64,000 bases of DNA from Rhizodiscina lignyota (Eukaryota; Ascomycota; Dothideomycetes; Aulographales; Rhizodiscinaceae). The translations under genes were made by a program, and so were the position numbers. The DNA lies in NCBI GenBank assembly GCA_010015805.1, contig ML978125.1, positions 434,001-498,000 of the forward strand, read 5' to 3'. Numbering within the stretch: the first letter of the stretch is position 1; the number at the start of each line of letters is the position of its first letter. The notes beneath the pieces were generated by a model. It searched no databases and had not been told where the DNA came from. It was given only the letters and a program-made list of their open reading frames with translations. This document shows, piece by piece, positions 3,965 to 24,836 of this stretch.

Positions 3965-5468
3965 ATGTCTGGTCCAGTTGTGAACCCCATCGTTCGAAGA
4001 AGCCATACCAAGTCGAAAAATGGATGCCAAAACTGCAAGAGCCGGCGTGTCAAATGCGACGAGATGCAACCCGATTGGTGAGTGCGTTCCTAAAGTTTCC
4101 AAAGACACCAATGGGGAAGGGATGTTGATGTTTAAAAGTCGGAACTGTGTCCGGTCTGGGCGGACCTGCAAGTATGACACGAAACATATAGCAGGCGACG
4201 AAATCGCCGGTCCTACAGCGGCTTGGCCAGAAGCTACCATGAAAGCTGTGAAGGAGTGGAGAGAGTCTGGTCAACCGCCGTTCCCACACTTGCGGATACC
4301 AGAATCTCCCAATTGGCATGGACTTTCCGAAGAAGAGTTGCGCTATGTGCATTACTTCTCCGTCATTGCATCGATGCTCGAAGTTAGCGGCACAAGATCG
4401 TTTTGCCTCTGGTGGAGCGAGTTCCCGATGTGGGTTGCAGCGCACAACGCTCGGATATTTTCTAAACTTGACTGCTAACATGACATTTTAGGTCCCTCCA
4501 ACTTGCGCTGCATCACAAGTTCGCAGCGTATGCTATGCTCGCACAAAGCGCGGATCGGTATGCCAGTATCACGAAGTCGTCAGAGGCCTTTGCACATGCC
4601 GTTAAATATAAAAACCTGGCAATTCAGGGAGCCAATCAGGCATTGTCTGAATTTTCCAGACATAATGCAGACGCAATACTGTTCTCTTCAATTTGCTTCT
4701 CAAGTTGTGAGACTGATTGGTAAGGAATTTGTCAAAACGTAAAGTTCCTCGTCTAACATTGTCAGGCGGGCGTGGAAAGCAATCATGGAGGGCATCATCG
4801 CTGTACGTCTGATATCAAATGGGTTATGGCAACTAAAACTAATTCGGCTTTAGGTCGTAGGCAGAATGCAGTCCTGGATACCGGATTCGGGGTTTGGCAT
4901 GCACCTCAAGATGCGGCAGCACTGTACTCGAATCTTGGGCTTCGCAGTTCCCGATGACGATGCCCGTCAACTAATTAGGGCACTTTTCGTCAAGGGCCTT
5001 AGCTCCTTGAACGCATTGATTCCTTGTCCGAAAGCTTCCCAAGAACTAGCAGCGCTAGTGAGACAACTTCGCGACGTCCTACGGACCGTACACGATCACT
5101 CTTCGAATTGGTCGGCCGACGAACAATATCGGTTAATCCATCCGTTCTCCCAATGGTGCAACAGATGGGACATTCCATACATATCTATTAGCCAGTGCGA
5201 CGTCATCGTTCTTGCGTCCCTTGCACATTTCTTCTCAGTGGTTGTAACGTTGGAGCTAGCATTTACTCTCATAGACCTACCTCTTTTAAGCCCTATTCGT
5301 ATGCGCGGGGTCATCGAGATAAACGATACGTTGCAAAAGGTGCCGGGAATTTTCTGCAGTGCTTGCAAGGAGTTCCATTCTTCTACACAATTGATGGCGT
5401 ACCCCATGCAGACGTTGATGACTTGGAGAAAACTAAGGGGCTGCACACGTTTAGCTTCGAATGCATGA
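3965..5468 (+). CDS. Zn2Cys6 (zinc cluster) transcription factor, five exons
   Basis: Exons by reading are 3965-4077, 4139-4429, 4492-4719, 4766-4802 and 4854-5468, giving 427 aa. The first intron splits a Cys codon (TG|T). Splicing restores a perfect binuclear cluster: Cys21, Cys24, Cys31, Cys38, Cys41 and Cys48, spaced C-x2-C-x6-C-x6-C-x2-C-x6-C. The rest matches the usual fungal layout of a short DNA-binding head and a helical C-terminal regulatory region (Fungal_TF/DUF3468 type, with the DWRAW junction typical of these proteins). An in-frame ATG at 3860 would add 35 residues; I prefer 3965 because it gives the usual short basic head. The gene is convergent with the feruloyl esterase at 5667-7265, which it might regulate, but nothing in the sequence proves that. 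Introns are 46-62 bp. Confidence 0.85.
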
Positions 5469-5666: not shown

Positions 5667-7265
5667 CTACGCCTCACACTCTTCTACGCAGTCAAAACTC
5701 TCCGCTGAGTCAACCTTACCGTGGCCACGATACTTTTCGACCAACGGATATCGACAAATTTTCCGTGTGAACTGTTCTCGAGCTGTAGCAGGAGTTACTG
5801 CGCTCAAAGCCTCAGGAGCGGTGCCGTTCTCCACCCACGATATCAAAGCTCCAAAGGGGTCGGAAGGAATCGCACCAGGTGTTGTGCCCGCACCACAGTG
5901 GTCAACGCCTGGAGCGAGGAACAGTCGCAAGTAATCGTCAACATTCGAGCTTCTGCCACCATACTTGTCGACTTCTTGGTAGTATCGAGCGCTGTCTTGC
6001 GGAAAGATCAACTGATCTGAGAGACCATGCCACATGAGGAGCTTGCCATTGGACTTCTGAAACCCAGAGAGGTTGGGGTTATCCGATCCGATGAGAGACT
6101 CATACTTTGCTACAGATCTTTGGAAGATGTAATCAAAGTCCTTATAGCCCACTTTGGAGAAATCGAAGTCAGGATCGGCCTCGACGAAGTACCTGATCCA
6201 GCCCTCGGGAACAAAGAAGGTGTTACCAACATGCGTTCCGTGGCTTACAGTCGTGTTGGCGAGACTGTCAAGGGGAGCTCCAAGAGTGAGGCCAGACCAG
6301 CGCGGCAATCCATAAAGACTTCCGGGGCCTTCCCAGATCTTGCGCACGATCTCAGCGACCTCAGTTGAGACCGTTGTTGTTTTCCCATCGCACTTTATCT
6401 TGGATCCTACTGCAGTCGATGGATTGTATTTGCACTTCGAAGGATCGTTGATAATGCCGTCTTTCACACCATCAAGCTCATCGCAAGCATCTATAGCGGT
6501 TTGCGTAAACCACTTCAGCTCGCACTGCGAAGGATACACTTGTGCTTCGTTCATCACAGCTTGAGGCCACAGCTCAGCGACGACATATTCCGGCCAATAG
6601 ATGGCAGGAGCGCCCGCCAGGATGCCGTCAAAGTCATCCGGGTATTTCTGTGCTTCCACGAGCCCTTGTCGGCCACCGGTCGAACACCCGTACCAATACG
6701 AGTGGTTAGCCGCATTCTTGTAATACGAAGCCGTCACAGCCTTGCCGACGACAGCCAAATCATGCACCGAACGGGATGCAAAATTTGTCAGGAGTCCAAT
6801 GTTCACATGCCCGGAAGTATCCAATGCCCAAGCCTGGGGACTCTCGGGGTTGTAGGGCAGACCCGCGTCAGTTGAAGCTACTGCGAATCCTTCGGCGGCG
6901 AAAGGGGCGAGAGCAAGGTCGCCGAGACCGGCAGCCCAGCCTTGACCACCTGTCCCAACGAAGCGGCCATTCCAGGTGCCGATAGGGAGCCATACTTGCA
7001 CCGAAACTTTGTCATTGGCACCTGGATGGGAGAGTGTGACGATGACCTCGCAGATATTTAAGCCGGATACTGTTTCGGGAAGGAAGGGCAGAGTCTCGGG
7101 AACGGTGTGGTTTCGTTTCTCGTCATACTGGACGTCGATTACTTTCGCTCCTGGGATGTGTGGGAGCCTGATATCGGCGCAAGAGAGTGCATGATGTGAT
7201 AGAGGATGAGCGAAGCTCAGGGGAGAGAGTACAAAAGCAGCAACGAAGACCAGAACGGAGAGCAT
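5667..7265 (-). CDS. Feruloyl esterase B / tannase family, secreted
   Basis: This 532-aa protein belongs to the tannase/feruloyl esterase family (PF07519), which hydrolyses ester bonds of hydroxycinnamic or gallic acids in plant material outside the cell. It begins with a clear signal peptide (MLSVLVFVAAFVLSPLSFA). The frame runs open upstream to 7445, but 7265 is chosen because the secretion signal starts there and a TATA box lies 97 bp upstream. The nucleophile motif YGCSTGGRQG puts Cys194-Ser195 at the active site, and GVDHCGAG near residue 456 supplies the His-Cys pair. Together they form the family's CS-D-HC arrangement, in which a disulfide joins the catalytic Ser and His neighbours. 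DQLIFPQDS probably carries the Asp. Length is normal and no intron is needed. Substrate (feruloyl, tannic or other ester) cannot be told by eye. Confidence 0.92.
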   Translation of the reverse strand: MLSVLVFVAAFVLSPLSFAHPLSHHALSCADIRLPHIPGAKVIDVQYDEKRNHTVPETLPFLPETVSGLNICEVIVTLSHPGANDKVSVQVWLPIGTWNGRFVGTGGQGWAAGLGDLALAPFAAEGFAVASTDAGLPYNPESPQAWALDTSGHVNIGLLTNFASRSVHDLAVVGKAVTASYYKNAANHSYWYGCSTGGRQGLVEAQKYPDDFDGILAGAPAIYWPEYVVAELWPQAVMNEAQVYPSQCELKWFTQTAIDACDELDGVKDGIINDPSKCKYNPSTAVGSKIKCDGKTTTVSTEVAEIVRKIWEGPGSLYGLPRWSGLTLGAPLDSLANTTVSHGTHVGNTFFVPEGWIRYFVEADPDFDFSKVGYKDFDYIFQRSVAKYESLIGSDNPNLSGFQKSNGKLLMWHGLSDQLIFPQDSARYYQEVDKYGGRSSNVDDYLRLFLAPGVDHCGAGTTPGAIPSDPFGALISWVENGTAPEALSAVTPATAREQFTRKICRYPLVEKYRGHGKVDSAESFDCVEECEA

Positions 7266-8096
7266 GGTGATAATCAATAAAAGATGCCTCGTGCTCCAAT
7301 TGAAACGCTGAATATCTGGATTACTGTAACTGCCCTGCAGAATGCCATTCCTATGTTTTATACCCCACGCCCATGAGCAGCTTTTGGTCGGCCTCCTAAT
7401 GCCACGCCGTTCATTACGCCGGATTTTGTGCGCTATATGTGCCAAGCTGTCGGCCTACTGCTCTTTCATCCTGAATACGACCGTGGCTGGAGAGCCAAGA
7501 GGTAACTCTCTCGTACAGCAACATTGAAGAAACTCGCAAGATGCATGTTACGAGCATTTTGAAGCTCGAAGCTCGAATTTCGCGGGTTGGTAAGCCAGCG
7601 ACGTCGTTAGGGTGGAGCAAGCCACACTCCACTTTTCCCGGCGAGATGCAGGAACGGCGCTAAAAGATGACACGCCTACCAAAACGGGGGATCTTCGACG
7701 TCACCTGCAGAGCCTCTACACTGCCTTGCTCAATGCTACTTTTACAACTTTAGCTGGAGTATATCTGACAAAGCAAAAGGAGCAATGTGTGTTCATAGCC
7801 CTCAGCTGAAAAGTGTGGTACCGTCAATTTCCTTTGACACATCTTCTCGCGTAAACACAATCACGAAGCTAGATACTACAAGCGCAAATCTTAAGATTAT
7901 GAGATAATGTATCATTTCCATTCTAACTTGATCCTAACTGAATCTAGAGGACTCCAGAAGAGATGGTTCCCTTCTCACCGTTGTGGAACCAAGGATACTT
8001 GATCCGGTTCGAAATATGATCTGAAAATGCCATAGTGCAAAACACTACCAGTGCATCAGCATGCTCAAGTCCCGAGTATACTGTCTGAAATCTCGT
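7266..8096. other. Intergenic interval 7.3-8.1 kb
   Basis: This holds the promoter of the feruloyl esterase gene and the 3' region of the next minus-strand gene. I see no coding signal or repeat here. Confidence 0.5.
7356..7362 (-). promoter_or_regulatory. TATA box of the feruloyl esterase gene
   Basis: On the minus strand the sequence reads GGGGTATAAAACATAG, 91-97 bp before the chosen ATG at 7265. This is a normal TATA-to-ATG distance for a filamentous fungal gene and supports that start over the upstream one. Confidence 0.5.
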
Positions 8097-8966
8097 CTAA
8101 CGTGATTCTTCAGTAGGGTGAGAATCATCGTCCTGGTCACCAGGGTGATCACCAAAGCGTAGGAGCTCAAAGGCCCGAGGACGAACAAGGCTTGGAGGAG
8201 GTCCATGAAAGCTTGAAGGTCCGCCAGTGCCTCGAGATTCACCAGAGCCAGGAGGTATATGAAAAGTTGGAGGTTGGATGAGGCGTACAGCGTTACGTGG
8301 GCCGGGGCGTGGACGGCCGCTCCACTGCTCCTGGCTCAAGCTAAATCCATTATCAGGCATCTCCCGAGAAATGCCGCCAAATGTTGCACCGCCACCCCTA
8401 GCGAGAGCACCACCTCCCCAGCCACCAATTCCACGACTAGAACCGCCAGGGCTGGCTCCGAATCCGTATTCATCCACCCCTGGTCCAGATTCGCTCATAT
8501 GGGCTTCGGGATCTCGTCGGTTAACAGCACGAGCAATCATTTGGTTAACGAGACGTCGATGCACGGCCTCCACCCCCTCTCCAGGAGAATCCAAGTGTGC
8601 AGACAATTCAGTTAACCTATGGTTGTACGACTCTTCTTCCCGCCGCATCTGGAAAATCCTGTCCGTGAAATCGATCTCCCCTCGGATATCGCCACGTTCG
8701 ATTGCCGCTCGAATTTGTTGGACAGCCTCTAGAGGAGGCTCGGGGAACTCGGCCGGAACCCCATCGTGGGTCGAGCCTTCAGCAAGACGCCATTGCGTGA
8801 GGCCCTCTCCATTAGGCATGCGCTCTCCACTAGGTATACGCTCACCGCCGGGTATGCGCTGGGGAAGGCCTTCAATGGTCTGCTCATCGATCCAGCGCGT
8901 AGTGTCTTTGGGGTCCATGACTCCAACCCCTCGGACATACACGAATCCTCCGTGGCAGCGGTACAT
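8097..8966 (-). CDS. Hypothetical Gly/Pro/Arg-rich protein
   Basis: From the first in-frame ATG (8966) the protein is 289 aa. The frame is open to 9152, but only a GTG begins it there. Near the N-terminus three degenerate hexad repeats (RIPGGE, RIPSGE, RMPNGE) follow one another. The middle is charged and helical (EAVQQIRAAIERGDIRGEI and onward), and the C-terminal half is rich in Gly, Pro and Arg and looks disordered. No known domain is recognised. A TATA box at 9257-9263 suits a transcript reading this frame, but a spliced 5' exon cannot be excluded. The opposite strand is also open over the same interval, which weakens the case somewhat. Confidence 0.5.
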   Translation of the reverse strand: MYRCHGGFVYVRGVGVMDPKDTTRWIDEQTIEGLPQRIPGGERIPSGERMPNGEGLTQWRLAEGSTHDGVPAEFPEPPLEAVQQIRAAIERGDIRGEIDFTDRIFQMRREEESYNHRLTELSAHLDSPGEGVEAVHRRLVNQMIARAVNRRDPEAHMSESGPGVDEYGFGASPGGSSRGIGGWGGGALARGGGATFGGISREMPDNGFSLSQEQWSGRPRPGPRNAVRLIQPPTFHIPPGSGESRGTGGPSSFHGPPPSLVRPRAFELLRFGDHPGDQDDDSHPTEESR

Positions 8967-10202
8967 GTTTGCCGAGTTCTTTGATCTGTTGCCGGTGACT
9001 CCTGATGACAGATGCTCACCAAGGTGTTTGATAATAGGTGTTTCGATAATCAAATTCGGCGCAGCGAATCGTGCTTGGAAGGAAGTGTTGCAGTCTTCCA
9101 ATACCGAGGTCCTATTTTTTAAATTGGTTGAAGTGCAAGCATATAATGGCACTGAAAGATGAAGAACTTGTTTCTTCTCGAAATGTGAGACTTTTGAGGG
9201 TTGAGAGGTGGTGTGAGGTTGAAAGTAGAAAGGTATCTTGGAAGCATTGGAAAGCCTTTTATAGTCGGAATGTGTAGTAGATCAACACTCTCTGGTGTTA
9301 AATGTGTCTTCCACGCTGGGTGTCTGAAAGAAATGGAACTGTGTTCAAATTGCCAGACTTCACGCTGAGGCCCGGGTGTGATTTCGACATTCACCTTTTC
9401 ATTAGCTGGGCAAACTCGAGTGCAAGATAGTCCTCCCATAAAGAGCTCTCTATCAAACTTGGAAATGAAAGGCTAGGGCAAAAACTCTTTATCAATGGAA
9501 TATGAGGCACACTTTACCGCTACCCACTGCGATGGGTAGAGTACCCTCCCTGGAGGTTCGACGTTATACACCCTCTTATCGTATGAGGCTGCGTGGGATC
9601 CATAAGCAAAAGGAACACAATCAGAAAAGGTGTCATTGTGTATTGACAATCAGGCTGATCAGATAAACTGAGGAGATGGCATTGTTGAAGTCGAACGAAT
9701 ACCTGAGGCAGAGAGAATGTCGCGGAGTTAAGCATCGCTAATGTCTCCGTGGTCAAAGGGACGATACCTAGATAGGCTAGCATAGGCTTATCAGTAAGGG
9801 TGGCCTCAAGTACGTACTCTGCTAGTTGCGGAGAGCCATTTCCTCTTCACCCCATACAATCCAATCCAACAGTCCATAGTTTCAAAAAGGCCTCCGTTAT
9901 TAGTCAAGAGTGGGGAAAGCATTTGTGCCGGGACAAACTCCGCCTTCATTTGCTGTGCCTGACGCTCCCGATGATCTCATATTCTCGGAAGGTGAGATCA
10001 TAGATAAAGTCGTAACCCATTCCAGTCCTTTCTGCCCTTGGGTAGGCAACTCCCTTTTAACGCGTTTGAAGTATTGACGGCCCAGCGCACGAGTTCTTTT
10101 CGCAAATTTCTTCCGCCAAACTTCCATTTGTCTAAGACATCTTCTCAACGCAAACCAGACATCTCCAATCCGCTCTCATTTTTGGTACCTCCTTGTTGGA
10201 CT
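8967..10202. other. Intergenic interval 9.0-10.2 kb
   Basis: This spans the 5' region of the minus-strand hypothetical gene and the promoter of the divergently transcribed dehydrogenase. No other coding signal was found. Confidence 0.5.
9257..9263 (-). promoter_or_regulatory. TATA box upstream of the hypothetical minus-strand gene
   Basis: Minus-strand CTATAAAAGG is a strong TATA consensus. It lies about 290 bp before the ATG at 8966, so either the 5' leader is long or an upstream exon was missed. Confidence 0.4.
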
Positions 10203-11090
10203 ATGGCTTCAACTCAGCGGTCTTCCGCCGGTTTCGACTTCACCCCAACCATCCACAAGGACACATACCCCTTCATTGATCCCACCAAGCTAGACCTCTC
10301 CTCCAAATCTGTTTTAGTAACCGGCGCGTCCAAGGGCATCGGCCGCAGCATTTCTCTCTCGTTTGCACGTGCTGGGGCCTCTCAAATTGCAATATGCGCT
10401 CGCAGCGACCTCACATCTGTGGTGAATGACCTCACCGTCGCCGCGAAGCACGCAGGACGCCGAGAGCCCAAGATTCTGCCAATTAAGCTCGATGTCACTG
10501 ACGAACAAAGCGTCGAGGCCGCAAGGCAGACTGTAGAGAAGGAGTTCGGCCGGCTCGACATCCTCATCAATAACGCCGGCTACCTCGAGAACTTCGTGCC
10601 AATCACTGAATCCAAAGCCGACGAGTGGTGGTGGAGCATGACGGTTAATCTGAAAGGACCTTACCTCTGCTCAAAAGCATTCATACCTTTACTCCTCAAG
10701 GGTGGCGACAAGACGGTCCTGAATATCTCTTCCGTGGGTGCGCACTTGGTTTCCCCCGGTGCCTCGGCCTACCAGTCGGCAAAGCTCGCGGTTGTTCGTT
10801 TTTCGGAGTTCCTGTGCTCCGACTACAAGAACCAGGGTCTGTTATGCTATTCGCTGCATCCAGGCGGTGTGGAGACGGAATTGGCATTGAATATGCCGAA
10901 GGCTATGCATGCTGTCCTACAGGACAAGCCCGAATTGGCGGGTGATACCATCGCTTGGCTTACCAGCCGGAGAAGGGAATGGCTCCTTGCTAGGTACATC
11001 AGCGTGACTTGGGACATGCCCGAGTTAGAGAAGATGAAAGACGAAATTGAAGAGAAAGATTTGCTGAAAGTTAGAATGGTTGTTCAATAG
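10203..11090 (+). CDS. Short-chain dehydrogenase/reductase
   Basis: This 295-aa classical SDR is an NAD(P)-dependent oxidoreductase with a Rossmann fold. The cofactor loop TGASKGIG is at residues 40-47, NNAG at 123-126, the catalytic Ser in NISSVG near 176-177, and the YxxxK pair in AYQSAK at Tyr190/Lys194. The post-catalytic HPGGVETELA segment is also present. The frame is open upstream to 10038, but that beginning does not look like SDR sequence. The ATG at 10203 gives a ~35-residue leader before the first beta strand, as in many fungal homologues. No intron is needed. The substrate is unknown. The alpha/beta hydrolase follows on the same strand after 594 bp. Confidence 0.9.
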   Translation: MASTQRSSAGFDFTPTIHKDTYPFIDPTKLDLSSKSVLVTGASKGIGRSISLSFARAGASQIAICARSDLTSVVNDLTVAAKHAGRREPKILPIKLDVTDEQSVEAARQTVEKEFGRLDILINNAGYLENFVPITESKADEWWWSMTVNLKGPYLCSKAFIPLLLKGGDKTVLNISSVGAHLVSPGASAYQSAKLAVVRFSEFLCSDYKNQGLLCYSLHPGGVETELALNMPKAMHAVLQDKPELAGDTIAWLTSRRREWLLARYISVTWDMPELEKMKDEIEEKDLLKVRMVVQ

Positions 11091-11684
11091 AAGGCATTGA
11101 TGGGTGAAAGATATCCACATAGATCTCTTTGCAAGCGAATATGAGAGCCTTCTGAAAGTTTACACTCTAGATGTGGTAAAATAGGGACAAACAGACATTC
11201 TTGGTGTGATATCAATGAAAAGGGAAGCCTAACTAGATGAGAAGAAACCAATACCTTATGTATCCAGTTCATGCTGTTCCCTATTCGGTTAGCGCGTCAT
11301 CTCATCAGGACCCATGCAGATGCTAGTGGCTCACCTTTGGTCCTTTCCATCGCCTGCATCAGGATTGTGGAGACTCACGAACTTACTTATTACTGGAAGT
11401 TTTGTGCCCGCCTTATTCGTAATATGGCTGGAGAGTCACTCAAACATCATGCCCAAATGTGGCTATTCAAGACAGCCAAGACCTTGACCGCACGAGAAAT
11501 ATCCGGCGCCCTTACTCCTTTAGAGAACGAGATGACTCCGTGGTACTCGTATCCTACAGACGTGACGCCAACCCTGTGAAACGTCTTTGACGACAGTCAT
11601 ATCTTGTAACATTCGATCAGTATGCTGCTGAGAGATTATTAGCACCTGGTGTGCCCTGAACTTCGACTGGAGCTGCTTCCTATC
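11091..11684. other. Intergenic interval 11.1-11.7 kb
   Basis: This is the 3' region of the dehydrogenase and promoter of the hydrolase. The short open frame at 11271-11579 has no recognisable content. Confidence 0.5.
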
Positions 11685-12680
11685 ATGAATTCACCAACTT
11701 GGTCGCGTGTCACGACGCGATATGCCAGCCAATTAAGCAAGAACAGAGGCGGCAAAGAAGACCAGACTTTCACACTCCAAGACGGTCGCGTCTTAGGTTA
11801 TGCGGAATACGGCCATCCAAATGGCTTTCCGCTCCTATACTTCCACGGGTACCCTTCCTCCCGTCTCGAAGCCTCAGCGGTCGACAACCTGACCAAGCGC
11901 CTCCGTCTCCGAATCCTCTCCCCCGACCGTCCAGGCTTTGGCCTATCTAGCTTCCAACCCAATCGCCGAATCATTGACTACCCGGCCGATATCAAAGCCT
12001 TCGCACAACATCTTCAACTGTCCAAGTTTGCGGTATTAGGTGGGTCAGGTGGAGGGCCGTATGCCCTTGCATGTGCCCATACGTTGCCGCGGGAGATGCT
12101 GTCTGCGGTTGGCGTGATGGCTGGTGCGCCGCCATGGGAGGCAGGACCAGAGAAAATGACACTGGGGCGGCGGTGGTTGAGATGGGCAGCAGTGAATACC
12201 CCCACTGCGTTGCGTATACTGACAGATGGGCTGGTTGGTTTGCTCAGGTGGATTGTGAGCACTGGGCCAATCACGAAGAGAATTGATAAGTGGCTGGAGT
12301 CCACGAGCAAGGGAGAGCAGGAGAAGGAACCGCTTCTGGCTGCCGAAGAGCCTCGCTCCGTAGTAGAGCGAAGAGAGCAACTGCTACGTTTAGCTTTCGA
12401 AGGATTTGCACAAGGCTCCGCAGCTTCTGTCCAGGAAGCACGATTATTATCAGAGCAAGACTGGGGATTCAAGTTCGAGGATATCGACTTTCCGGTCAAA
12501 TTGTGGCATGGAACCAATGATGCAGATGCGCCAGTCGAGATGATACGTTACATGGCAAACCGGTTACCGCACGGTGTGCTTAAGGAGTTCGATGAGACGC
12601 ACTTCACTCTGGCGAATCATCTAGAGGAGATTTTGGCTGAATTTAACCCCGACACTTCCTCAAACCCTAAAGAAGCGTAG
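11685..12680 (+). CDS. Alpha/beta hydrolase fold protein
   Basis: This is a 331-aa serine hydrolase. The oxyanion motif is HGYPSSR (His54-Gly55). The nucleophile elbow GGSGGG places Ser121. A late Asp lies in WHGTNDADAP, and the catalytic His is in DETHFTL near the C-terminus, so the triad looks complete. An in-frame GTG at 11649 opens the frame earlier, but eukaryotic initiation points to the ATG at 11685. There is no signal peptide, so the protein is probably cytosolic or mitochondrial. A basic Ser/Thr leader (RVTTRYASQLSKNRGGK) could be a weak targeting sequence. The substrate is unknown; relatives include epoxide hydrolase-like and esterase-like enzymes. Confidence 0.88.
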   Translation: MNSPTWSRVTTRYASQLSKNRGGKEDQTFTLQDGRVLGYAEYGHPNGFPLLYFHGYPSSRLEASAVDNLTKRLRLRILSPDRPGFGLSSFQPNRRIIDYPADIKAFAQHLQLSKFAVLGGSGGGPYALACAHTLPREMLSAVGVMAGAPPWEAGPEKMTLGRRWLRWAAVNTPTALRILTDGLVGLLRWIVSTGPITKRIDKWLESTSKGEQEKEPLLAAEEPRSVVERREQLLRLAFEGFAQGSAASVQEARLLSEQDWGFKFEDIDFPVKLWHGTNDADAPVEMIRYMANRLPHGVLKEFDETHFTLANHLEEILAEFNPDTSSNPKEA

Positions 12681-13165
12681 AAAGATACCCCCACCTGCGG
12701 ATGCAAGTTCACTCACTCAGCTCATTGTGGGAACATAGCAGCACTCTCCCCTTCATGTAATAAAATAATTACCATGGTCTATTTGGACTCCAACATATCA
12801 TTTTGCCACTGGGCCGACTGAGACGTTTAGCTGCAGCTATTCGATATCACGCTCGTGGTTCTTCAACCTACGTTCAATGGCACTGCTTCACTCAAAGCTC
12901 TTTCAAGACAAGGCGACAATATTATATCCGGGCTTTGGCTGGCGTTCCATTTATGAAGAAGTGAGAAGTTCAGACGATTTTGCAGTAAGATTCCCTCATA
13001 TTTGAATGGTTTCTGTTTCAGGAAATGCGATGAGAGGAATCGAAGAGCGAAAAGAAAACGGTATCTCCAAAGTAGCAATCTCAAGATGCTCTAAATTTCG
13101 ACTTCCTTCAAGAGAAGATCCGTTTAATTTTCCTTATCTTCATAACCAATACCATTCATCCGATG
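12681..13165. other. Intergenic interval 12.7-13.2 kb
   Basis: This is a 3'-to-3' interval between convergent genes. I see no feature in it. Confidence 0.45.
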
Positions 13166-14043
13166 TCAAGAGCGCGGCAACGGCACCCAAGGCGGTTCCT
13201 GGCCGAGCACGGCAGGCTGCTCGGATCCAAATAGGCCCTGATGATATGCCGCATCAAGGTTTGCGCGGAGCTGAAGGTTCTTTCTGCGGAGCTTGCTGTT
13301 TGTTTTGATTTCGTGGTCAAGAAATGTGACCAGCAATGTCAGGCGCATCTGTGCCGCAATGGCAGACTTGCACGACGCTCTGGAGTGCTTCATACTTACC
13401 CGCTTGGTCTCACACTGCCAGGGCTTGTAGTAGACAGGAACGGGAACCTCAGTGGGGATCTGTTGTCTCTCATGGCGTGTACGGAGAGTAATGCCCATAC
13501 TCCGATTCTCATCCGAGATCCTTATGTTCTCTTCTAGGATATCATCAAATTCTCGCTTCGCCACTGCGGTTTCGCACTGAGTTAGGTCTATCTGACTGCA
13601 CGCACCTTCATGTGCTGTCTGATCATGAAAGCAGCAACCGCTCATTGCAGAAAATGAATCGAGCAGGGCCACTGATAGAGATGAACCGGCGTCGAGTGGC
13701 TCTGACAATATCTGTACTGAGAAACGAAAATGTCGAGCACTGCTTTGAAACGGGAAGCGTTATTCCGGATTGCCCAATCCAATTCCACCGCAAACTGACG
13801 GAACTGTTCTGGCGATTCTTCGTCTTCGTACTCTATAGATCGATCATCTTCCAGAGTAGCCGGCCGCTCCACTCCCGCCATAAGCATCGTATCAAATGCT
13901 CGGAGCATGGCTTCTCCTGGCGAACGAATTCCGCGCAATTCATGGCACCAAGCATACTCGTTATTGCGTACGAGATCAAACGCTTTCTGGTCTATAAGCT
14001 TTAGAGGCTCCGTGGAGTTAGCGTAGAGGAGGATATCGAACAT
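13166..14043 (-). CDS. Hypothetical protein in two frames (spliced or frame-broken)
   Basis: Two minus-strand frames abut. The first starts with an ATG at 14043 and is acidic in its middle (LEDDRSIEYEDEESPEQF). The second ends at 13166 and has a charged helical part (KREFDDILEENIRISDENR) followed by a basic one (EIKTNSKLRRKNLQLRANL). They meet around 13640-13715. No clean GT-AG intron joins them: the only phase-matched junction in the overlap would be 14 bp long, and longer options use weak donors such as GTGGAA. So this is either a normal gene whose intron I cannot place or a frame-shifted relic. No family is recognised. An open frame further upstream (14258-14506) could be an earlier exon. 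Confidence 0.35.
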
Positions 14044-14699
14044 TGCTGCGCCAGGAACCTGAATTGTGTCGTTAATTTTAAATTGGTATGTTTAGCGAGT
14101 GGCAGACTAGAGGGACCATGTGAATACCAAGTTGCGCGGAAGAACGAAGCTGGAGATACAGAATGAAACTGCTGCGCATTTTATGCAGTCCAAGGCAAAG
14201 CAGTAGTGTCCGATGTCTTGAATCGTCATGTTTGCCATGTTTGCAATAGATCGATTGTCATTGTTGACAAGATTGGGAGACATCGTCCAAGACATTCAAG
14301 GAAGCAAGCTTTTCGGAAGCTTGTGGTAATCCCATCCCCCTGCGGAAGGATGGAGAGTTTGCTGTGAAGCAGAGACCATATGCAACGACGACATTTTGCT
14401 GACGATTAAAGACCTGGAATCGGTGAAACAACTCAGACTTCTGAACTGTAAGGTCTTTCAGAGCATGTGAGAATGATCGGTACCAATCATTCCCGATTGA
14501 GAGCACGTGAGAGCGCGACGAAATGCAGCTGAGATGAATCGCGGAGCGGGCGCCACTCGTGTCTTTATTGAAGGTAAGCGAAAATGGCGCGTCAGACAGG
14601 ATGAGCCCATTTAAACCTGTTGGATTGCCTCTCTGAACTCATCAAACCCTCGTTGTTGCCATCCAAGCCATCATTCTAGCAATCTCGAACTGTCTCTTC
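14044..14699. other. Intergenic interval 14.0-14.7 kb
   Basis: This is a divergent promoter interval. The minus-strand frame at 14258-14506 has codon-like content (DWYRSFSHALKDLTVQKSEL) but begins without an ATG. It could be an upstream exon of the neighbouring minus-strand gene. Confidence 0.35.
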
Positions 14700-15083
14700 A
14701 TGATGTCGGAAACCATCAACGCCGTCTACATCGTCCTTCGCAAGGACTTCGACCACCACACCGATCGCAAAGGCCGCCTCGCCCTCCCAATCGGAGCGTA
14801 CTCGACAGTCACAGCTGCCAATGACGCTGCCAAAGCACACTGCACCGCCGAAGCGAGGAAAGGGCCAGATTATGGCGACGGTCCCGAGCACGAAATGAAG
14901 GACGGCCTGTACAAAGGGAGCTGCACGACGAGGCAAGATAGGCGAGACAATTTTGAAGTGTGGGTCAAGATGATGAAATTGGGTGATGTGAAAAAAACGA
15001 CGAAGCGGAAGAGTCAAGGAGAAGCGGGAGATGGAGCAGTAGCAAAGAAGGGGAAGGCGGCTGCTCCTTCCACGACGAGTTAG
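14700..15083 (+). CDS. Small conserved hypothetical protein
   Basis: This is a 127-aa single-exon protein. The first ~95 residues look like a compact domain (INAVYIVLRKDFDHHTDRKG, then LPIGAYSTVTAANDAAKAHC and FEVWVKMMKLG). The last ~30 residues are a Lys/Ala-rich basic tail that may bind nucleic acid or be nuclear. I recall similar short proteins in other ascomycetes but no assigned function. A second ATG at 14703 is an alternative start. There is no signal peptide. Confidence 0.6.
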   Translation: MMSETINAVYIVLRKDFDHHTDRKGRLALPIGAYSTVTAANDAAKAHCTAEARKGPDYGDGPEHEMKDGLYKGSCTTRQDRRDNFEVWVKMMKLGDVKKTTKRKSQGEAGDGAVAKKGKAAAPSTTS

Positions 15084-15515
15084 AGGAAGTTAGGATATTG
15101 AGCTGCCACAATTTTCGCTTCTCATTTGGATTGTATTCTTCTTTCGTATGAACAGATTTGGGTGGAATTCGTCTAATACAGCAAGGCAAAAAAGAGATCA
15201 TGGATATTCCAATAATACTGCAATCATAACGGGATCTTATGGATGCACCGAACCCCAGCTACGCGATGATCTCGCGGGGAATGCGCAAGTTTATAAGCGG
15301 CACTTTTCGGATATGCAGATGAAAACATCACATTTGGACACCGGAGAACCGGGGCTCAACTCGAAAGCAGAGGCATATTTGTAGCTCTTAAGCGGGTAAG
15401 TTTGGTTTAAAGCTTTCCTTGATTCCAATGTGTCTCTTATCGTGGCTCTCCGATCTGCTCTATCTATTTCTTCCGTTTTGACGCGTCGTGACGCGTCTAC
15501 ATCCACGTTAGCACC
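15084..15515. other. Intergenic interval 15.1-15.5 kb
   Basis: This is the promoter region of the aminotransferase gene. It contains a paired ACGCGT element close to the start codon, listed separately, and nothing else recognisable. Confidence 0.5.
15481..15496 (+). promoter_or_regulatory. Paired ACGCGT (MCB-like) boxes
   Basis: Two ACGCGT hexamers separated by four bases lie 20-35 bp before the aminotransferase ATG. In yeasts ACGCGT is the MluI cell-cycle box bound by MBF. Here the position is inside the likely 5' leader, so a regulatory role is only a possibility. Confidence 0.25.
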
Positions 15516-16971
15516 ATGATTTCAGCGCGTGGTGCAAGGTATATTCAATCTGGCTATGCTCGAGGAGACAAGAACTTTTATGACAGATATGACAATCCTG
15601 ATGGAATTGTCGACTTTGGAAATGCAGAGAATGTTCGTTTTGCGTCTATTATGTGTGATTTCGTTATCTGAATATGGCAGTTTTTGATGCACAATTTGAT
15701 GACCGAATATATCAACCACCGTGTGAGTAATTTAGTTCTGTTTCAAATGAGAGGCTAATAACGGAAGCAGAGACCTTTTCAATGGAAACTCTGCACTTAC
15801 AACGAAGGTGCCACTGGGAGCACGCGTCTTTGCAGCGCAATGGCTGGCCTGGTCAACGACTACTTTGCACCACTAACTCCAATATCCGCAGATCATATTA
15901 CATTTACAGCCGGCGTTACTGCTCTAAACGAAATGATCACTCAAGTTCTCTGCAACGAAGGCGACACCATCATGCTCGGGAGGCCAAGTTACGGCTCGTT
16001 CAACAAAGACCTGGTGCTCCGGACAGATGTCCAGCTCGAATACGTTGGCTTCAATGGCGCCGATCAGTTCGCTCCTGAAGTCGTTGATGTCTATGCTGAT
16101 GCTTTGAAGCAGGCCAGAGAGCGCGGCTCAAAAGTCAGAGCGCTTCTGGTATGCAATCCGCATAACCCACTTGGACGATGTTATCCCCAAGCAACGCTCG
16201 AGCGACTTGTCGACTTTTGTGTCTCTGAGGATCTGCATTTGATTAGCGACGAAATCTATGCGCTGTCCATTTTCAATCCCACGGCTCAATTCACCTCCGT
16301 TCTTGGCTGCGGCAAAGACACACCCGAGTACCACAACCGTGTGCATGTATTGTACGGAATGTCAAAAGATTTTGCTGGTGCGGGCCTTCGCCTAGGCTGC
16401 CTGATCAGTCGTAGCAAAGTCGTCAATGATGCGATCCGGCCAATCTGCCGCTTTGCTTCACCTTCGGAGATCTCTGGGTTTTTGGCCGCGGAGCTCCTCG
16501 ACGAGAAGGACCTTGTAAAGTCGTTCATAGAGCAAAGCCGAAAGGCACTGTTCCAAAGTCATAGATTTGCAGCTGGCCTTCTCCATGAGGCAGGGATTAA
16601 ATATTATTGGCCTGTGTATGTCTCCTCATAGTCTTCCACATTTCCTTGGTGCTTCGTTGATTCCTGCTCTGCTAATTGTTCGCAGCGATGCCGGATTCTT
16701 CATATTGATGGACCTCTCCTCGTTCCTCCCACTGTTGGAGACCAATGGAGATGCATGGGCTGCAGAAAGATTGCTCTCCAAGTGCTTCATGGACCAAAAG
16801 GTCGACATGTCAAGGGGAGAGGTATATCACGATGAACGACCCGGCCAGTTCCGATTAATACATAGCTTTGATCAAAATATGATAATCGAGGGTGTCAGGA
16901 GGTAAGAATTTGTCTATAGTAAATGATCTTTGTTAAGACATCACAGGATACGGAAGGTGCTTGGCATCTAA
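15516..16971 (+). CDS. ACC-synthase-like class I/II aminotransferase (PLP enzyme)
   Basis: Exons by reading are 15516-15632, 15681-15722, 15771-16615, 16686-16901 and 16947-16971, giving 414 aa. Splicing yields the family's conserved blocks: GNAEN near the N-terminus, YNEG, ITFTAGVTALNEM, CNPHNPLG (about 181-188), SDEIYALSIF, and the PLP-binding Lys near residue 252 in YGMSKDFAGAGLRLG. The last intron uses GTAAGA and gives the usual ending GVRRIRKVLGI; without splicing it would stop at GVRR. Such enzymes bind pyridoxal phosphate and resemble plant 1-aminocyclopropane-1-carboxylate synthase. In fungi many sit in secondary-metabolite clusters and act on amino-acid derived intermediates. The true reaction is unknown. 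A PrpD-family gene follows on the same strand after 308 bp. Confidence 0.88.
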
Positions 16972-17279
16972 CCGAGATGGAAAGAACTGCGAGGTACTCT
17001 CGAGCGACTTAACCTGTGTTTCTAAAAACCGCAAATCAATCGTTGCCATACTTCATTGCACGTAGAGAGCAGCACAACAATACATAATTGCGGGTCTTAG
17101 CTTTCCAGAAGAGGGGTGAGCGGGCAGTGGGCGCGGATGTTCCCCGCCCGGCTCACTATTGTGGGAGGAAATATCAACAACAACTAATCCTAGAAATGAA
17201 GGTATTTCGATTTCCAAAAGCTGTTCATATCATCATATTTGTTTCCCAGTGAAGATTTTCATTTTCATTTCCGTCGAAA
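16972..17279. other. Intergenic interval 17.0-17.3 kb
   Basis: This is a short spacer between two co-oriented genes with an A/T-rich leader before 17280. No feature is seen. Confidence 0.45.
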
Positions 17280-18719
17280 ATGTCGCAAGATCTATCAGTC
17301 TCTTCTGATCGAGACCGTACGCTCGATCTAGCAACATACCTCTCAAAGCTCACTTACGACGATATTCCAAATGATGTTGTGCACATAGCAAAGGCATCTA
17401 TTCTAAACTCCGTTGGCTGCGGTCTCTCTTCCGCGATGCTTGAGCCAGCCAAGAAATTGTTCGCCGCTCTCGATGTAACTGGAAAAAAACCTCGCCCAGT
17501 CACGGTCCTTGCTCGACCAGAACATGCAACTGTTGATGATGCAGCACTTCTCAATGGACTGTCTATGACTGCGCGATTCTTCGACGATACGCATTTGGGC
17601 ACAGTCATCCACCCATCTGGACCTCCGCTTGCTGCAATCTTGGCGTATGCCGAAGCCCACCACATGAGTGGGAAGGATGTTATAGTGGCATTCTTGGTCG
17701 GTGTAGAAACTTTGCTGGCTGTCGGGTACGCTCTTGGGCTGGGACCGTACAGGAAAGGGTGGCATCTTACCAGCATCACCGGTACATTCGGAGCTACAGC
17801 TGCTATTGCAAAGCTAATGAACCTTCCTCCTGAGAAGTTTGCTATTGCGTTCGGTCACGCGTCGAGCATGGCGGCGGGCTCCAGAGGTGTCTTCGCGACC
17901 GACACATTGATAATGCATGCGGGACGTGCCGCGCAAAATGGGCTCTTAGCTGCCCGCATTGCTCGAGAGGGGTTTGGGAGTACTACGCACGCCCTGGAGA
18001 AATGGGTACAGCTCATTTCGGTCGGAGACAGCAATCCATCTCTAGTCAGCGCACCGGCTGATGCGAAGCCGAATGAGCGGAAGTGGGAGATACTTGAAAA
18101 CGCATTCAAGCCTTATCCGTGTGGCATTGTGATTCATCCCATCATCGATGCGGGAGTGGAAGGGCATCAATACTTTTTCAAGAGCGACGACAGCCCGATT
18201 AAGGGAAAGTCGCCGCGGGATGCCTTGGATATCTTTCCGGAGATCGAAGTATTGGTGACGCCTCTGACTTTACGGCTATGCAGTGTCAAGCACCCAGAGA
18301 ACTTCCCGCAGGTCATGTTCAGTACCTACCATGGGCTTGCTGTTGGATTGGTGTATGGTAACGGCGGGATAAAGGAATTCTCGGGAGAAGTGGCCAATGA
18401 TCCTGTCATTAAGGCATTAAGGGACCGGACTACTCTCAAGACAGACGATTCGTTGGGAGATGACCAAGCTTCTGTCACCTTCACATACAGCTCTTCCACG
18501 GGCCGTGGAGAAAAGAAGGTCTTCATTGAGCATGCGACAGGATCCTTGCTAAATCCGATGACAGACAAACAATTAGACACCAAATTCTTGGACCAAGCGA
18601 TAGCAGGAAATGTAGACAAAGGAAGTGCCTCGGAAGCATTAAAGGAACTTTGGGATTTAGAAAAGGTGGACGATATTGGCTCTGTAATGAAGAAGCTTGT
18701 ATCGGCCTCGGTGCCGTAG
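17280..18719 (+). CDS. MmgE/PrpD family protein (2-methylcitrate dehydratase / cis-aconitate decarboxylase superfamily)
   Basis: This is a 479-aa single-exon protein. The N-terminal helical domain carries the superfamily's blocks: ILNSVGCGLSSA, DDAALLNGLSMTARFFDDTH (active-site Asp and His region, about residues 83-102), HPSGPPLAAILAYAEA and GWHLTSITGTFGATAAIAKL. GHASSMAAGSRGVFATD and HAGRAAQNG follow, then a C-terminal lid domain. Characterised members dehydrate 2-methylcitrate or decarboxylate cis-aconitate to itaconate. Several fungal members act in secondary metabolism instead. No mitochondrial presequence is evident (it begins MSQDLSVSSDRDRTLDLATY), which argues against a housekeeping methylcitrate role. 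Substrate is not determinable by eye. Confidence 0.88.
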   Translation: MSQDLSVSSDRDRTLDLATYLSKLTYDDIPNDVVHIAKASILNSVGCGLSSAMLEPAKKLFAALDVTGKKPRPVTVLARPEHATVDDAALLNGLSMTARFFDDTHLGTVIHPSGPPLAAILAYAEAHHMSGKDVIVAFLVGVETLLAVGYALGLGPYRKGWHLTSITGTFGATAAIAKLMNLPPEKFAIAFGHASSMAAGSRGVFATDTLIMHAGRAAQNGLLAARIAREGFGSTTHALEKWVQLISVGDSNPSLVSAPADAKPNERKWEILENAFKPYPCGIVIHPIIDAGVEGHQYFFKSDDSPIKGKSPRDALDIFPEIEVLVTPLTLRLCSVKHPENFPQVMFSTYHGLAVGLVYGNGGIKEFSGEVANDPVIKALRDRTTLKTDDSLGDDQASVTFTYSSSTGRGEKKVFIEHATGSLLNPMTDKQLDTKFLDQAIAGNVDKGSASEALKELWDLEKVDDIGSVMKKLVSASVP

Positions 18720-20105: not shown

Positions 20106-21216
20106 ATGGTCGACGCCGGCGGCCCATGGGTGAGGTCTTTCAACTTCATAATAGATGCCAAGTCCACTGTAGCTCACTGAACCAAGTGTCTTCATCGCCT
20201 TCAGCGCCGTTGCGATATGGTCGAGCGTCCCCTTGACGCTCCGAGTATTCACAACGCTTAAACGCCGCCGAGGACCATACTTCTGGTCTCTTCTCATCAC
20301 ATCTTGGGGCCTCTGCATTCGCCAGATCGGATACACGCTCAGCTTCCTCGCACCATGGGTCTCGTGGATCGCCAGTAACATCCTTGCCCAAGCCGGCTGG
20401 GTTGCGATGGTGACGGGTTTCTCGGTCGTGCTCTACTCGCGTCTGAACCTGATCGTGGAAAGTCGAAAAGTGCGCCGATGGGCCCTCGTCATGATCGTCG
20501 CTGACGGCCTCATATTCCATCCGGCCATGATCACGCTCTCGATAGGCCAAATCGCACTACGCCATGAGGGAAAATTGCATGCGGTGGCACAGTGGCAGAG
20601 CGTATTCAAGCCGCTAGAACGAATCCAGATCTTGGTCTTTTCTGCTCAAGAGACCATCATCTCGTTTTTCTACGTGTGGGCTGCGTACCAATATCTCCGA
20701 AGCCGGTTCGAGCAGGGTGGGAAAACTCGGAGCGCCATGATACTCCTCCTGGTCGTCCAGCTTGTAATTGTGGCCGTGGATATTGCCCTCATCGCCATCG
20801 ACTTCGCTGGCCTTTTGGAGCTCAAGCTCTTCATCCACTCGTTTGTATACGCCGCGAAACTGGAGCTCGAATTCGTTGTGCTGAATCAACTCGTTGAGCT
20901 TTCAAAGCTGGGCGTACCTGGCCTTCCATCATCAACCAAAGGTCTAACGCATGGCTCGCAGAAAGTCGACGACGAGGCGAAAGTTGGCGACTCACCTGGG
21001 CCAGAATTCATGACAGCGAAAGCTATGGAATGGACACCACCACAGTCGCCGGACTCTCAATCCATAAGCGGAACTCGTTTCGCGGGACCCTCTCAAAAAG
21101 AGAAGAGAGATACTATGTTCAAAAACGCATCGCCAATAGGACCAACAGCAGAGATGCATGAAATAGACATTGATGTTTTGGGACTAAAGAAGACCATCAC
21201 CAATCCAGATGGATGA
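20106..21216 (+). CDS. Fungal multi-pass integral membrane protein (DUF7703-like)
   Basis: A small first exon (20106-20129, MVDAGGPW) joins 20173-21216 across a 43-bp intron, giving 355 aa. The upstream frame of exon 2 ends in the TAG of the acceptor, so this splice is needed to obtain an ATG. About six to seven hydrophobic helices occupy residues 10-235, including VFIAFSAVAIWSSV, YFWSLLITSWGLCI, ILAQAGWVAMVTGFSVVLYS, IISFFYVWAAYQYL and MILLLVVQLVIVAVDIALIA. They are followed by a ~110-residue soluble, Ser/Pro-rich cytosolic tail. The pattern matches a large ascomycete family of unknown function with rhodopsin-like topology. Its position next to a UstYa-family gene suggests possible co-regulation but does not show it. 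Confidence 0.72.
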
Positions 21217-22084: not shown

Positions 22085-23038
22085 CTACTCCATCATCGCC
22101 TCCCGCTGCCTCTCCTGCTCCTCCCTAATCCTCGTCCACTGCCACGGCTCGTCAACCTCCCTCTCCCCTCCCTCCCTCCGCCACACTGCAATCGTCCTCA
22201 TCGGATCAACTTCATTCGCATCCATCCACCCCTTTAGTCCATCCCAGTCTCTGCACACTGCATTATACGTGAAATCTGGCTGCGGGATATCGACGTCCCG
22301 CATCCAATTATATGTGATTAGTTCCGTGGGCGCTGCGCACTGCAGCGCTTCTCGCACGACGTCGAGACAGTGCAATAGATGATCTTCGTGTAAAGGTGAG
22401 AGCATAGATGCGTCGGGATAGTAGTACTCCCGGAAGAGATTCTTCCTGATGCCGTTGAGGCAGTGGAGTTGGTGCGTTACAAGTGGCATCATGAGATGCG
22501 CGTCAGGGTTATCTGGCGCATGGACTGTGAGAGAGGGGTCTTTGCCTATGTGGGTGACGTCGGCGGCGGTGATGTATGTGAGGCCGAGACGTGTGAGTTG
22601 TTTCCATGCCTCGTCGACTTGAAGACCAGGTGGTTGGGCGTAGACGGAGCGGTTGTAGAGCGTGTCGTTGATGGATTTGGTTTTGAGCGGAACGGAGACG
22701 CGATCGAGGAGCGGTGCTGCGAGCACGGTCAGACGGATTGAACCACCATGAGAAGCCCAATACGTACAGTAGTATGATGTTTGTTTCAGGAGGGGGTTAA
22801 GGTCAGTGGCGTAGCCGTCTGTGGAGGGGTTGTTGCTACGAAATGTACGAAAAGCCACATCGGCAAATGTCACGAGAAACATTGTACAATTCAAAACGAC
22901 AAGAATGAATGTCCACTTGTAATTGAGCTTCCTCGATGCGCCTCCGTCGATAGGTAATTGGACGCCCTGCTCTTCATCTTTCTCAAGCATTGGTAGTCTT
23001 TCTTCCGCTGAGTACCCATCTTGCTTGAGATTCGCCAT
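22085..23038 (-). CDS. UstYa-family (DUF3328) oxidase
   Basis: Exons are 23038-22768 and 22716-22085 with a 51-bp intron at 22717-22767. The intron is in frame, so the unspliced frame is also open. Splicing gives YYSPLLDRVSV, which fits the family, and a 300-aa protein. A single membrane anchor lies at about residues 41-60 (WTFILVVLNCTMFLVTFADV). Both hallmark HxxHC motifs are present: HQLHC at 172-176 and HLLHC at 203-207, the latter in DHLLHCLDVVREALQC. In ustiloxin, phomopsin, asperipin and related pathways, proteins of this family oxidatively cyclise ribosomal peptides, often through a Tyr ether; other members act in non-ribosomal pathways. The gene is divergent from the repeat precursor at 24401-24836, which makes a peptide substrate plausible. 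Confidence 0.88.
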   Translation of the reverse strand: MANLKQDGYSAEERLPMLEKDEEQGVQLPIDGGASRKLNYKWTFILVVLNCTMFLVTFADVAFRTFRSNNPSTDGYATDLNPLLKQTSYYCTYWASHGGSIRLTVLAAPLLDRVSVPLKTKSINDTLYNRSVYAQPPGLQVDEAWKQLTRLGLTYITAADVTHIGKDPSLTVHAPDNPDAHLMMPLVTHQLHCLNGIRKNLFREYYYPDASMLSPLHEDHLLHCLDVVREALQCAAPTELITYNWMRDVDIPQPDFTYNAVCRDWDGLKGWMDANEVDPMRTIAVWRREGGEREVDEPWQWTRIREEQERQREAMME

Positions 23039-24400
23039 TTTCTTTAGAGCCAGTGAAACATCTGAGAGAACTTTGGAGAATGAATGAGCGACTGAGGAGA
23101 TAGTGGAGATAGAAAAAGATCATTATTCTAAATTCCAGAAACGGTACCATCGCCGGTATGATTTATCGTTCCCTTGAGTGGTGACATGTAACCTCGAAGC
23201 ATTTGCAAGACTGCGACGGATTTGGCAGGCGCTTTGCTCAGATAAGCTCGATCGCTACGTTGATTTAAGCTAGATAGTGGAATACGAGCCGACCCGTGGT
23301 GCTGACGCCAAGGATCACCAACCACATCCCCCAAGTTTGTGCTAAGGACACAATGGCGTAGTCCTTGCGAAAGAAACCAATGGGCGGTTGATGTTATACA
23401 GGAAATATCCAGGTTCCGCGCCGAGTGGTGGGATCATTTGCGGCCGAGGCGACGATCCGTTCGAGCATTAACTAAACGTTGATATCCACAAGGTAACCTT
23501 GGTTTCGCCGATGGTGCTCGAAGTCCTAAAAATTCAAGTGCTGTCGGAATTGTTCAAGCATTTCCGCGGGGATTACCGAGCTTCCTGATCTTGCTATTGC
23601 CCTTCCTTGACAGATATTCAGAGATTATGCTGAGGGATTAAGCCGTGGAAAGCCGCCAGTGGTGTCTGGCAAAGCTTTGATACCACTTGTTAGTGTTGAT
23701 TCGCTAATGTTAACTCGCTTGGACGTTCTAGTTAGCGACTGATGTATACGCGACTATGCCACCTTCTGTTTTCTGCCAAGATCGCGATATCTTCCAATGG
23801 GAGCCAAACACTAATACAATCTTCGATCTCTCGCACTCCCACCAGAAGCTCTTTGGAGTCATCAACTCCGGGAGCGTCAGCGAGCTCCACAAAGTCGTCA
23901 TCAGGATGCAGTGTGTAAAGCGGAATGCGACATTTTCAACAGGTGCTGGCAATCGAAGGATTCGATTGTCTTTGATCCCTTGCCCTTCATACCGAAAGAT
24001 GCTTGGAGGCATGGATTACGAAAGCGACAGTTAGATCCATATTCAAGAGCAAGGACTGCACGGTTACCGAGAATAACCGCCAAGCAGCTAGAAGGTGCAA
24101 AGTGAGGTCATACTCCAAGATGTCTGTTGAATGAACCGGAAACAAATACTGCAAATAGCAGGAGATTAAATGTACTCAATCGGAGCACGAGGATAAAGGT
24201 GCAGAAGAAAGTCGGCCTACTGGAGGTGTCGACGTAAACTTGCAGATTTGGCTGAAGAGTTAAGGAATTGAGAAAGGATGAATGTAAGCGACAGGTTCTC
24301 AGTGGTATAAATGGGAAGGAAATTCGTCGATATTGAAAGTATCAGAACCATCCTGCAGGGCAGATCAGCAGCAGATCAACATCTCTAGAACAAAATCAAT
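23039..24400. promoter_or_regulatory. Divergent promoter interval between the UstYa-family gene and the repeat precursor
   Basis: This 1.36 kb region separates two start codons that point away from each other. Short frames near 23756-24105 (for example one encoding CKAECDIFNRCW) overlap on both strands and show no family signal, so I do not call them. A TATA box lies at 24306-24312. Confidence 0.45.
24306..24312 (+). promoter_or_regulatory. TATA box of the repeat-precursor gene
   Basis: TATAAAT lies 89-95 bp before the ATG at 24401, an ordinary spacing for a highly expressed fungal gene. It supports the start choice. Confidence 0.5.
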
Positions 24401-24836
24401 ATGCGTTTCACCGGCTTCATCTCGGTTGCCGTGCTGGGCCAGTTGGCGATGTCATTGCCAGTTTGTAAGTTGTATGATTCGGCGTATCTTTTCTAAACTG
24501 ACAAAGTTAGCTCCGTCTGCTGCAAGCCTTCAGCAGAGGAATCCTGCACCACCACCAAAGTATATGCCACTGGTCGACGTTGAAATTGGAAAACGGGCTC
24601 CCCCTCCAAAGTATATGCCACTTGTTGACGTCGAGGAAAGGGCACCGCCGCCAAAATACATGCCCCTCGTTGATGTTGAAGTTGGAAAGCGCGCTCCTCC
24701 TCCAAAGTATATGCCACTGGTCGATGTCGAAGAGCCTGCTCCTCCACCAAAGTACATGCCCCTCGTTGATGTGGAGGAGAGGGCACCGCCGCCAAAATAC
24801 ATGCCTCTCGTCGATGTCGAGGTGCTTCCAAAATAA
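24401..24836 (+). CDS. Secreted repeat precursor peptide, candidate dikaritin-type RiPP precursor
   Basis: Exons are 24401-24464 and 24511-24836 with a 46-bp intron, giving 129 aa. A signal peptide (MRFTGFISVAVLGQLAMS) is followed by a short spacer and six copies of APPPKYMPLVDVE at 24546-24821. The linkers after successive copies are IGKR, ER, VGKR, EP, ER and a final VLPK. The two GKR linkers are dibasic sites for a kexin-type Golgi protease; the ER linkers are monobasic. Each unit has one Tyr, one downstream Pro and one Asp. Fungal RiPP precursors of the dikaritin class have exactly this architecture (secretion signal, repeated cores, kexin sites) and lie beside UstYa-family genes, as here. 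Alternatives are a secreted proline-rich structural protein or a kexin-processed repeat protein without cyclisation. The first intron interrupts the end of the signal-peptide region. The product and its activity are unknown. Confidence 0.75.
24546..24821 (+). repeat. Six tandem 39-bp coding units with 6- or 12-bp linkers
   Basis: Units start at 24546, 24597, 24642, 24693, 24738 and 24783, so the period alternates between 51 and 45 bp before ending on two 45-bp steps. All six encode the same 13 residues while third codon positions differ among copies (for example GAC/GAT and GTC/GTT). That indicates selection on the peptide rather than a very recent expansion. Confidence 0.9.

Follow-up and report, generated by a model that had tools for sequence, protein, structure and literature searches.

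A divergent UstYa-family oxidase gene and repeat precursor gene in Rhizodiscina lignyota: a candidate dikaritin-type RiPP locus with a new core

Genes and features of the locus

The DNA analysed here, referred to as the window, is a stretch of 64,000 nucleotides corresponding to positions 434001-498000 of contig ML978125.1 in the genome of the dothideomycete Rhizodiscina lignyota (order Aulographales; 33.4 Mb, 29 contigs). It harbours a UstYa-family gene on the minus strand and a repeat precursor gene on the plus strand, which form a divergent pair with 1362 bp between both ATGs (23039..24400). The initial annotation had placed the two genes head to head at a distance of 1.36 kb, and the coordinates agree; the observation of the pair is real and is hereby confirmed, although several details of the initial annotation needed correction. 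The intergenic region is presumed to contain both promoters, and a putative TATAAA was read by eye in the DNA at 24306-24311, 5' of the precursor ATG.

The UstYa-family oxidase gene (22085..23038, minus strand) contains a 51-bp intron (22717..22767, GTACGT...CTGAC...CAG), the removal of which yields a protein of 300 amino acids that equals the deposited NA57DRAFT_74908 letter for letter. Its earlier assignment to the UstYa family (PF11807, formerly DUF3328), with both HxxHC motifs, holds: the Pfam match has an E-value of 1.8e-37 (score 129.8 bits, cut-off 25), the frame is intact and the match runs nearly to the profile's end. The two motifs, HQLHC (22460..22474, minus strand, residues 172-176) and HLLHC (22367..22381, minus strand, residues 203-207), are intact as well, and their histidines and cysteines (H172, H175, C176 and H203, H206, C207) are invariant in an alignment of 14 sequences. 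A hydrophobic, membrane-anchor-like stretch can be recognised by eye close to the N-terminus. The closest relatives of the protein outside this genome share at most 47% identity with it, and a sequence search of solved structures returned no match.

The precursor gene (24401-24836, plus strand) consists of two exons separated by one intron and encodes 129 amino acids. Exon 1 (24401..24464) codes for a signal-peptide-like sequence, MRFTGFISVAVLGQLAMSLPV, the hydrophobic stretch of which was recognised by a simple count. The 46-bp intron (24465..24510) was deduced from the splice signals GTAAGT...CTGAC...TAG, and its removal brings the signal-like exon into frame with the repeats. Exon 2 (24511..24836) comprises a short stretch up to QQR-NP, which places a single Arg upstream of unit 1, then six repeat units, VLPK downstream of unit 6, and the stop codon. 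Six identical 13-residue units had been proposed earlier, and the spliced translation indeed contains exactly six copies of APPPKYMPLVDVE (24546..24584, 24597..24635, 24642..24680, 24693..24731, 24738..24776 and 24783..24821, all on the plus strand), each with one Tyr; this is the single core type of the precursor. The Pfam scan of the 129-residue product gave no match.

The initial annotation had also described a signal peptide and Lys-Arg sites. The former stands as a signal-like start, judged by the hydrophobicity count, whereas Lys-Arg is present at only two of the five inter-unit junctions, which read, in order, GKR, ER, GKR, EP and ER. The two candidate Kex2 sites follow unit 1 (24591..24596, plus strand) and unit 3 (24687..24692, plus strand), thereby dividing the six units as 1-2-3, and Ala-Pro-Pro-Pro stands directly after both of them, at the start of the units. 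The junctions after unit 2 (24636..24641) and unit 5 (24777..24782), on the same strand, are Glu-Arg and hence not dibasic, and the one after unit 4 (24732..24737) is Glu-Pro, devoid of any basic residue.

The six 39-nt copies of the unit share 74-90% DNA identity and vary at 11 columns, all 11 of them third codon positions, with at least 17 nucleotide changes, none of which alters the peptide. Because every variable column is a third position and the peptide is unchanged, the repeat peptide is under selection. With about 26% of random changes expected to be silent in the unit copies, the rough neutral probability is 1e-10, a value that is indicative only, as some copies were made by duplication of a 96-bp block (96-bp period) and the changes are not fully independent.

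The Pfam scan of the gene neighbourhood covered 22 long ORFs (at least 110 aa, overlaps removed) within 10 kb of the locus and, in the whole window, 41 of the 58 long ORFs plus the precursor; genes made up of exons all shorter than 110 aa could escape it. The 22 within 10 kb gave no hit to tyrosinase, methyltransferase, S41 peptidase or MFS domains, and tyrosinase, S41 peptidase and MFS transporter were likewise not detected in the 41 scanned across the window. A methyltransferase domain is located 34 kb from the locus (59097-61601), and in the genome-wide UstYa search the window has no UstYa match other than the gene described here. The neighbouring genes code for a DUF7703 protein (20173-21213, Pfam) and, from 25942 onward, for a product that has a signal-like start, contains several Cys and lacks a Pfam match. 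The locus looks like a two-gene unit. Metabolic genes (tannase, short-chain dehydrogenase, alpha/beta hydrolase, aminotransferase and MmgE/PrpD) are lined up to the left of it, at 5670-18716, and possibly form a separate catabolic cluster.

The core had been regarded as unfamiliar, and, as far as they reach, the searches bear this out. A protein database search with the precursor, spanning database proteins 0.55 to 1.75 times its length, yielded 359 word-sharing candidates, none of them at an E-value of 10 or better, and the precursor seems to be absent from the deposited proteins searched. When compared with its own genome, the precursor recovered its own gene (E 8.5e-64, in two pieces) and a sole other, weak match (30%, E 1.21), the genomic place of which was scanned and showed no repeat; the genome search gave a single copy of the gene. 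A literature text search with fragments of the unit, the scope of which took in few subscription papers, returned no paper, and, as far as the available text of the literature naming R. lignyota goes, none of it apparently deals with this locus.

UstYa-precursor pairs across the genome

The genome contains 76 UstYa matches, which form 36 clusters when matches at most 10 kb apart are merged. Repeat precursors adjoin UstYa genes in at least nine of the 36 clusters, namely in the window and in eight others (L002, L003/L053, L008, L011, L015, L041, L044 and L046), the number being a lower bound because 12 of the 76 UstYa matches lie outside the scanned stretches; the other 27 clusters have no precursor in the flanks scanned. 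All 36 clusters were at least partly covered, with flanks of mostly 1.5 kb and about 179 kb in total. The scan sought 5-residue words repeated at least three times; one scan used 4-residue words too and reported only frames with at least two or at least three dibasic sites, depending on the locus set. If several reading frames were open across an array, preference was given to that with dibasic sites and an upstream signal-like start, and the remaining frames were dropped.

Signal-like starts were sought up to 600 bp upstream of the array, and a hydrophobic one was present, by a simple count, in all nine precursors; splicing to the repeat was derived only for the window precursor and, by eye, for L053. 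Eight of the nine precursors form divergent pairs with their nearest UstYa match, and L015 is arranged in tandem; in the case of L046, the nearer of two UstYa genes set the orientation. The distance from repeat array to UstYa match in the divergent pairs is 1.1 to 1.8 kb. The probability of eight divergent pairs out of nine is 1e-4 if the odds of divergence are taken as 1/4, and 1e-3 at 1/3. No comparable precursor was present in six arbitrarily chosen 10-kb stretches (60 kb, a small control) or in the other 61 kb of the window. An irregular Arg-rich repeat frame within one control stretch (L051 7598-7924) was judged to be no precursor.

The closest paralogue of the window UstYa protein in this genome (34%, E 1e-30) is divergent from a precursor of its own, which carries a different Tyr-containing unit and follows the same exon plan as in the window, that is, a signal-like exon, a short intron (by eye) and a repeat exon. 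The cores of the eight other precursors are unrelated in sequence to the window core. The existence of at least nine pairs, eight of them divergent with similar spacing, suggests that the core sequences turn over and the gene layout is retained. A similar richness has been reported for Venturia inaequalis, in which nine dikaritin clusters were identified (PMC9632046).

The L046 precursor (4799-5365, minus strand) exhibits two alternating possible cut sites per repeat (KYDIDPDKRNVVLEPRQ), namely KR and a single Arg after Glu-Pro or Glu-Ala. The single-Arg sites may be comparable to the Glu-Arg junctions of the window precursor.

A deposited model from Myriangium duriaei, K461DRAFT_321273 (P0014, 398 aa), reads as a fusion, in which a signal-like start is followed by 13 VIFR-type repeats (nine of them DVIFRR) and then by a UstYa domain (residues 213-365, E 1.5e-21). 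Its closest relative, P0015, also of M. duriaei, has the UstYa domain without repeats. Precursor and enzyme could be genuinely fused in K461DRAFT_321273, or the gene model could have merged two genes.

Proposed biosynthesis and alternative readings

It is likely that the two genes constitute a dikaritin-type RiPP locus, the precursor of which would be cut, trimmed and oxidised by the adjacent UstYa protein. The dikaritin-type reading was already that of the initial annotation, and it is reinforced by the intact UstYa gene, the signal-like repeat precursor, the solely synonymous change among the six unit copies and the pairing at eight other clusters; the genome context is its strongest support. 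Points against it are that only two of the five junctions are dibasic, that APPP follows both KR sites, that no tailoring gene was seen in the 10-kb neighbourhood, and that 27 of the 36 UstYa clusters have no precursor in the flanks scanned. In view of the recurring UstYa-precursor pairs and of the matching layout of the closest paralogue's precursor, the pair is best read as a dikaritin-type locus whose core looks new, the arrangement itself being already known. In the survey of Umemura 2020, a DUF3328 gene was reported among the 15 closest genes for 22% of the genes for Kex2-processed repeat proteins (KEPs), mostly adjacent, and Tyr was commoner in the repeats of KEPs near DUF3328 (65.6% vs 38.2%; PMC7329392).

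Both genes would probably be co-expressed from the shared 1.36-kb divergent region. The precursor would enter the secretory pathway and be cut at Lys-Arg, perhaps at single Arg too, into pieces with one or more APPPKYMPLVDVE, which would then be trimmed at both ends. The trimmed peptide may serve as the substrate of the neighbouring UstYa protein, which would probably join the phenol oxygen of Tyr to a carbon in the side chain of a residue further downstream, at a guess the Val or Leu of YMPLV. Hence we infer a cyclic product. Although a Tyr ether ring is likely, it is not assured, since other reactions of UstYa enzymes have been reported as well, including residue desaturation and, in other pathways, hydroxylation or chlorination (PMC10512285, PMC12048977). 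The calculated [M+H]+ values are 1455.755 for APPPKYMPLVDVE (1453.740 after loss of 2H), 1611.845 for APPPKYMPLVDVEVG (1609.829), 1093.560 for KYMPLVDVE (1091.544) and 737.354 for YMPLVD (735.338).

Alternatively, Kex2 processing of the repeat protein may set free a linear signalling peptide without modification (KYMPLVDVE or similar) upon Ste13-type removal of AP and PP dipeptides, in which case the UstYa neighbour would be coincidental; we consider this reading unlikely. The APPP after both KR sites is in keeping with this, as it constitutes the XP dipeptide signature, which is reported to accompany alpha pheromones as well as other linear peptides and, within the accessible text of that study, to be absent from ustiloxin/phomopsin-type and epichloecyclin precursors (PMC6339444); moreover, 78% of KEPs have no DUF3328 neighbour (PMC7329392). 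Since APPP fits the XP signature, a pheromone gene was sought in the genome. The repeats of ascomycete alpha pheromones are described as either Cys-type or PYG[L/M]P[I/V]G (PMC6339444), and the window unit fits neither motif. The genome pattern search with CxLPGQxC gave no match, and the one with PYGxPxG a single, unrepeated match and no pheromone gene. The wider pattern CxxxGQxC had 198 matches, and among the matches listed was a Cys-type alpha pheromone precursor with five CHLVGQPC copies, which lies on another contig (L055 571-1578). This rules out the window precursor as an alpha pheromone; a linear peptide of non-pheromone function is possible. The coincidence that such a peptide would imply is itself at odds with the chance of about 0.6% that a given gene lies within 3 kb of a UstYa cluster (36 clusters, 33.4 Mb), and with the recurrence of the divergent layout beside other precursors.

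A more elaborate form of the dikaritin-type reading, in which one-, two- and three-core peptides would be released and each unit cyclised by the UstYa protein to give linked multi-ring products, has to be entertained because there are only two dibasic junctions, splitting the array 1-2-3, but it appears rather improbable. Still less credible is an unprocessed, secreted Pro-rich repeat protein of the wall or surface: three of the five junctions are indeed without a dibasic site and the units are Pro-rich, yet the protein is only 129 aa in size and has two clean GKR sites, and conservation is limited to the 13-residue unit whereas the junctions vary. That the Glu-Pro and Glu-Arg junctions mark a former dikaritin locus in decay, with its cleavage sites being lost, is most improbable, given a core intact in six of six copies with synonymous change only and an uninterrupted UstYa frame, the family match of which stops only shortly before the profile end.

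As a dikaritin-type locus, the gene pair would belong to a group, the RiPPs made from KEPs with the help of UstYa-family enzymes, in which few products are known in comparison with the many predicted loci, the dikaritins with a known product having been reported as five as of 2022 (PMC10512285). Because it is minimal, with two genes, one Tyr and one repeated core, the locus would be a convenient test of a lone UstYa enzyme.

Comparison with known systems

The locus resembles those of ustiloxins and phomopsins in its signal peptide (here a signal-like start), tandem cores, UstYa-family enzyme and Tyr in the core. The phomopsin-type likeness suggested in the initial annotation is not supported beyond this, as APPPKYMPLVDVE is without EDYXI, the motif reported for ustiloxins and phomopsins (PMC6339444), and none of the 22 long ORFs up to 10 kb away showed a tyrosinase, methyltransferase or S41 peptidase domain. 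In addition, KR is described as lying by each core in ustiloxin and phomopsin precursors (PMC6514808), unlike in the window precursor.

In lacking EDYXI, and with no tyrosinase detected in any of the long ORFs up to 10 kb away, the locus appears nearer in its gene plan to asperipin-2a than to ustiloxin and phomopsin. The asperipin-2a locus of Aspergillus flavus consists, in the accessible account of it, of four genes (aprA/aprY/aprT/aprR) with a single UstYa-type gene and no tyrosinase (PMC6514808). As far as that account goes, both loci are very small clusters that pair a repeat precursor with one UstYa-type gene and in which no tyrosinase is seen. The present locus differs from it in that no AprT- or AprR-like transporter or reductase domain was seen in the 22 long ORFs up to 10 kb away, and in its core, which is a different one with one Tyr.

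The signal-like start, the tandem repeats and the adjacent DUF3328 gene are features that the window precursor has in common with the KEPs as reported by Umemura 2020. The KEP screen is described as seeking at least three tandem repeats of at least eight residues between dibasic sites (PMC7329392), whereas the KR sites of the window precursor split the six units 1-2-3, and a strict KEP screen may therefore overlook it. With the other eight pairs of its own genome, the locus shares the repeat array near a UstYa match, at a distance of 1.1-1.5 kb in these eight and in a divergent layout in seven of them, and differs from all of them in its core.
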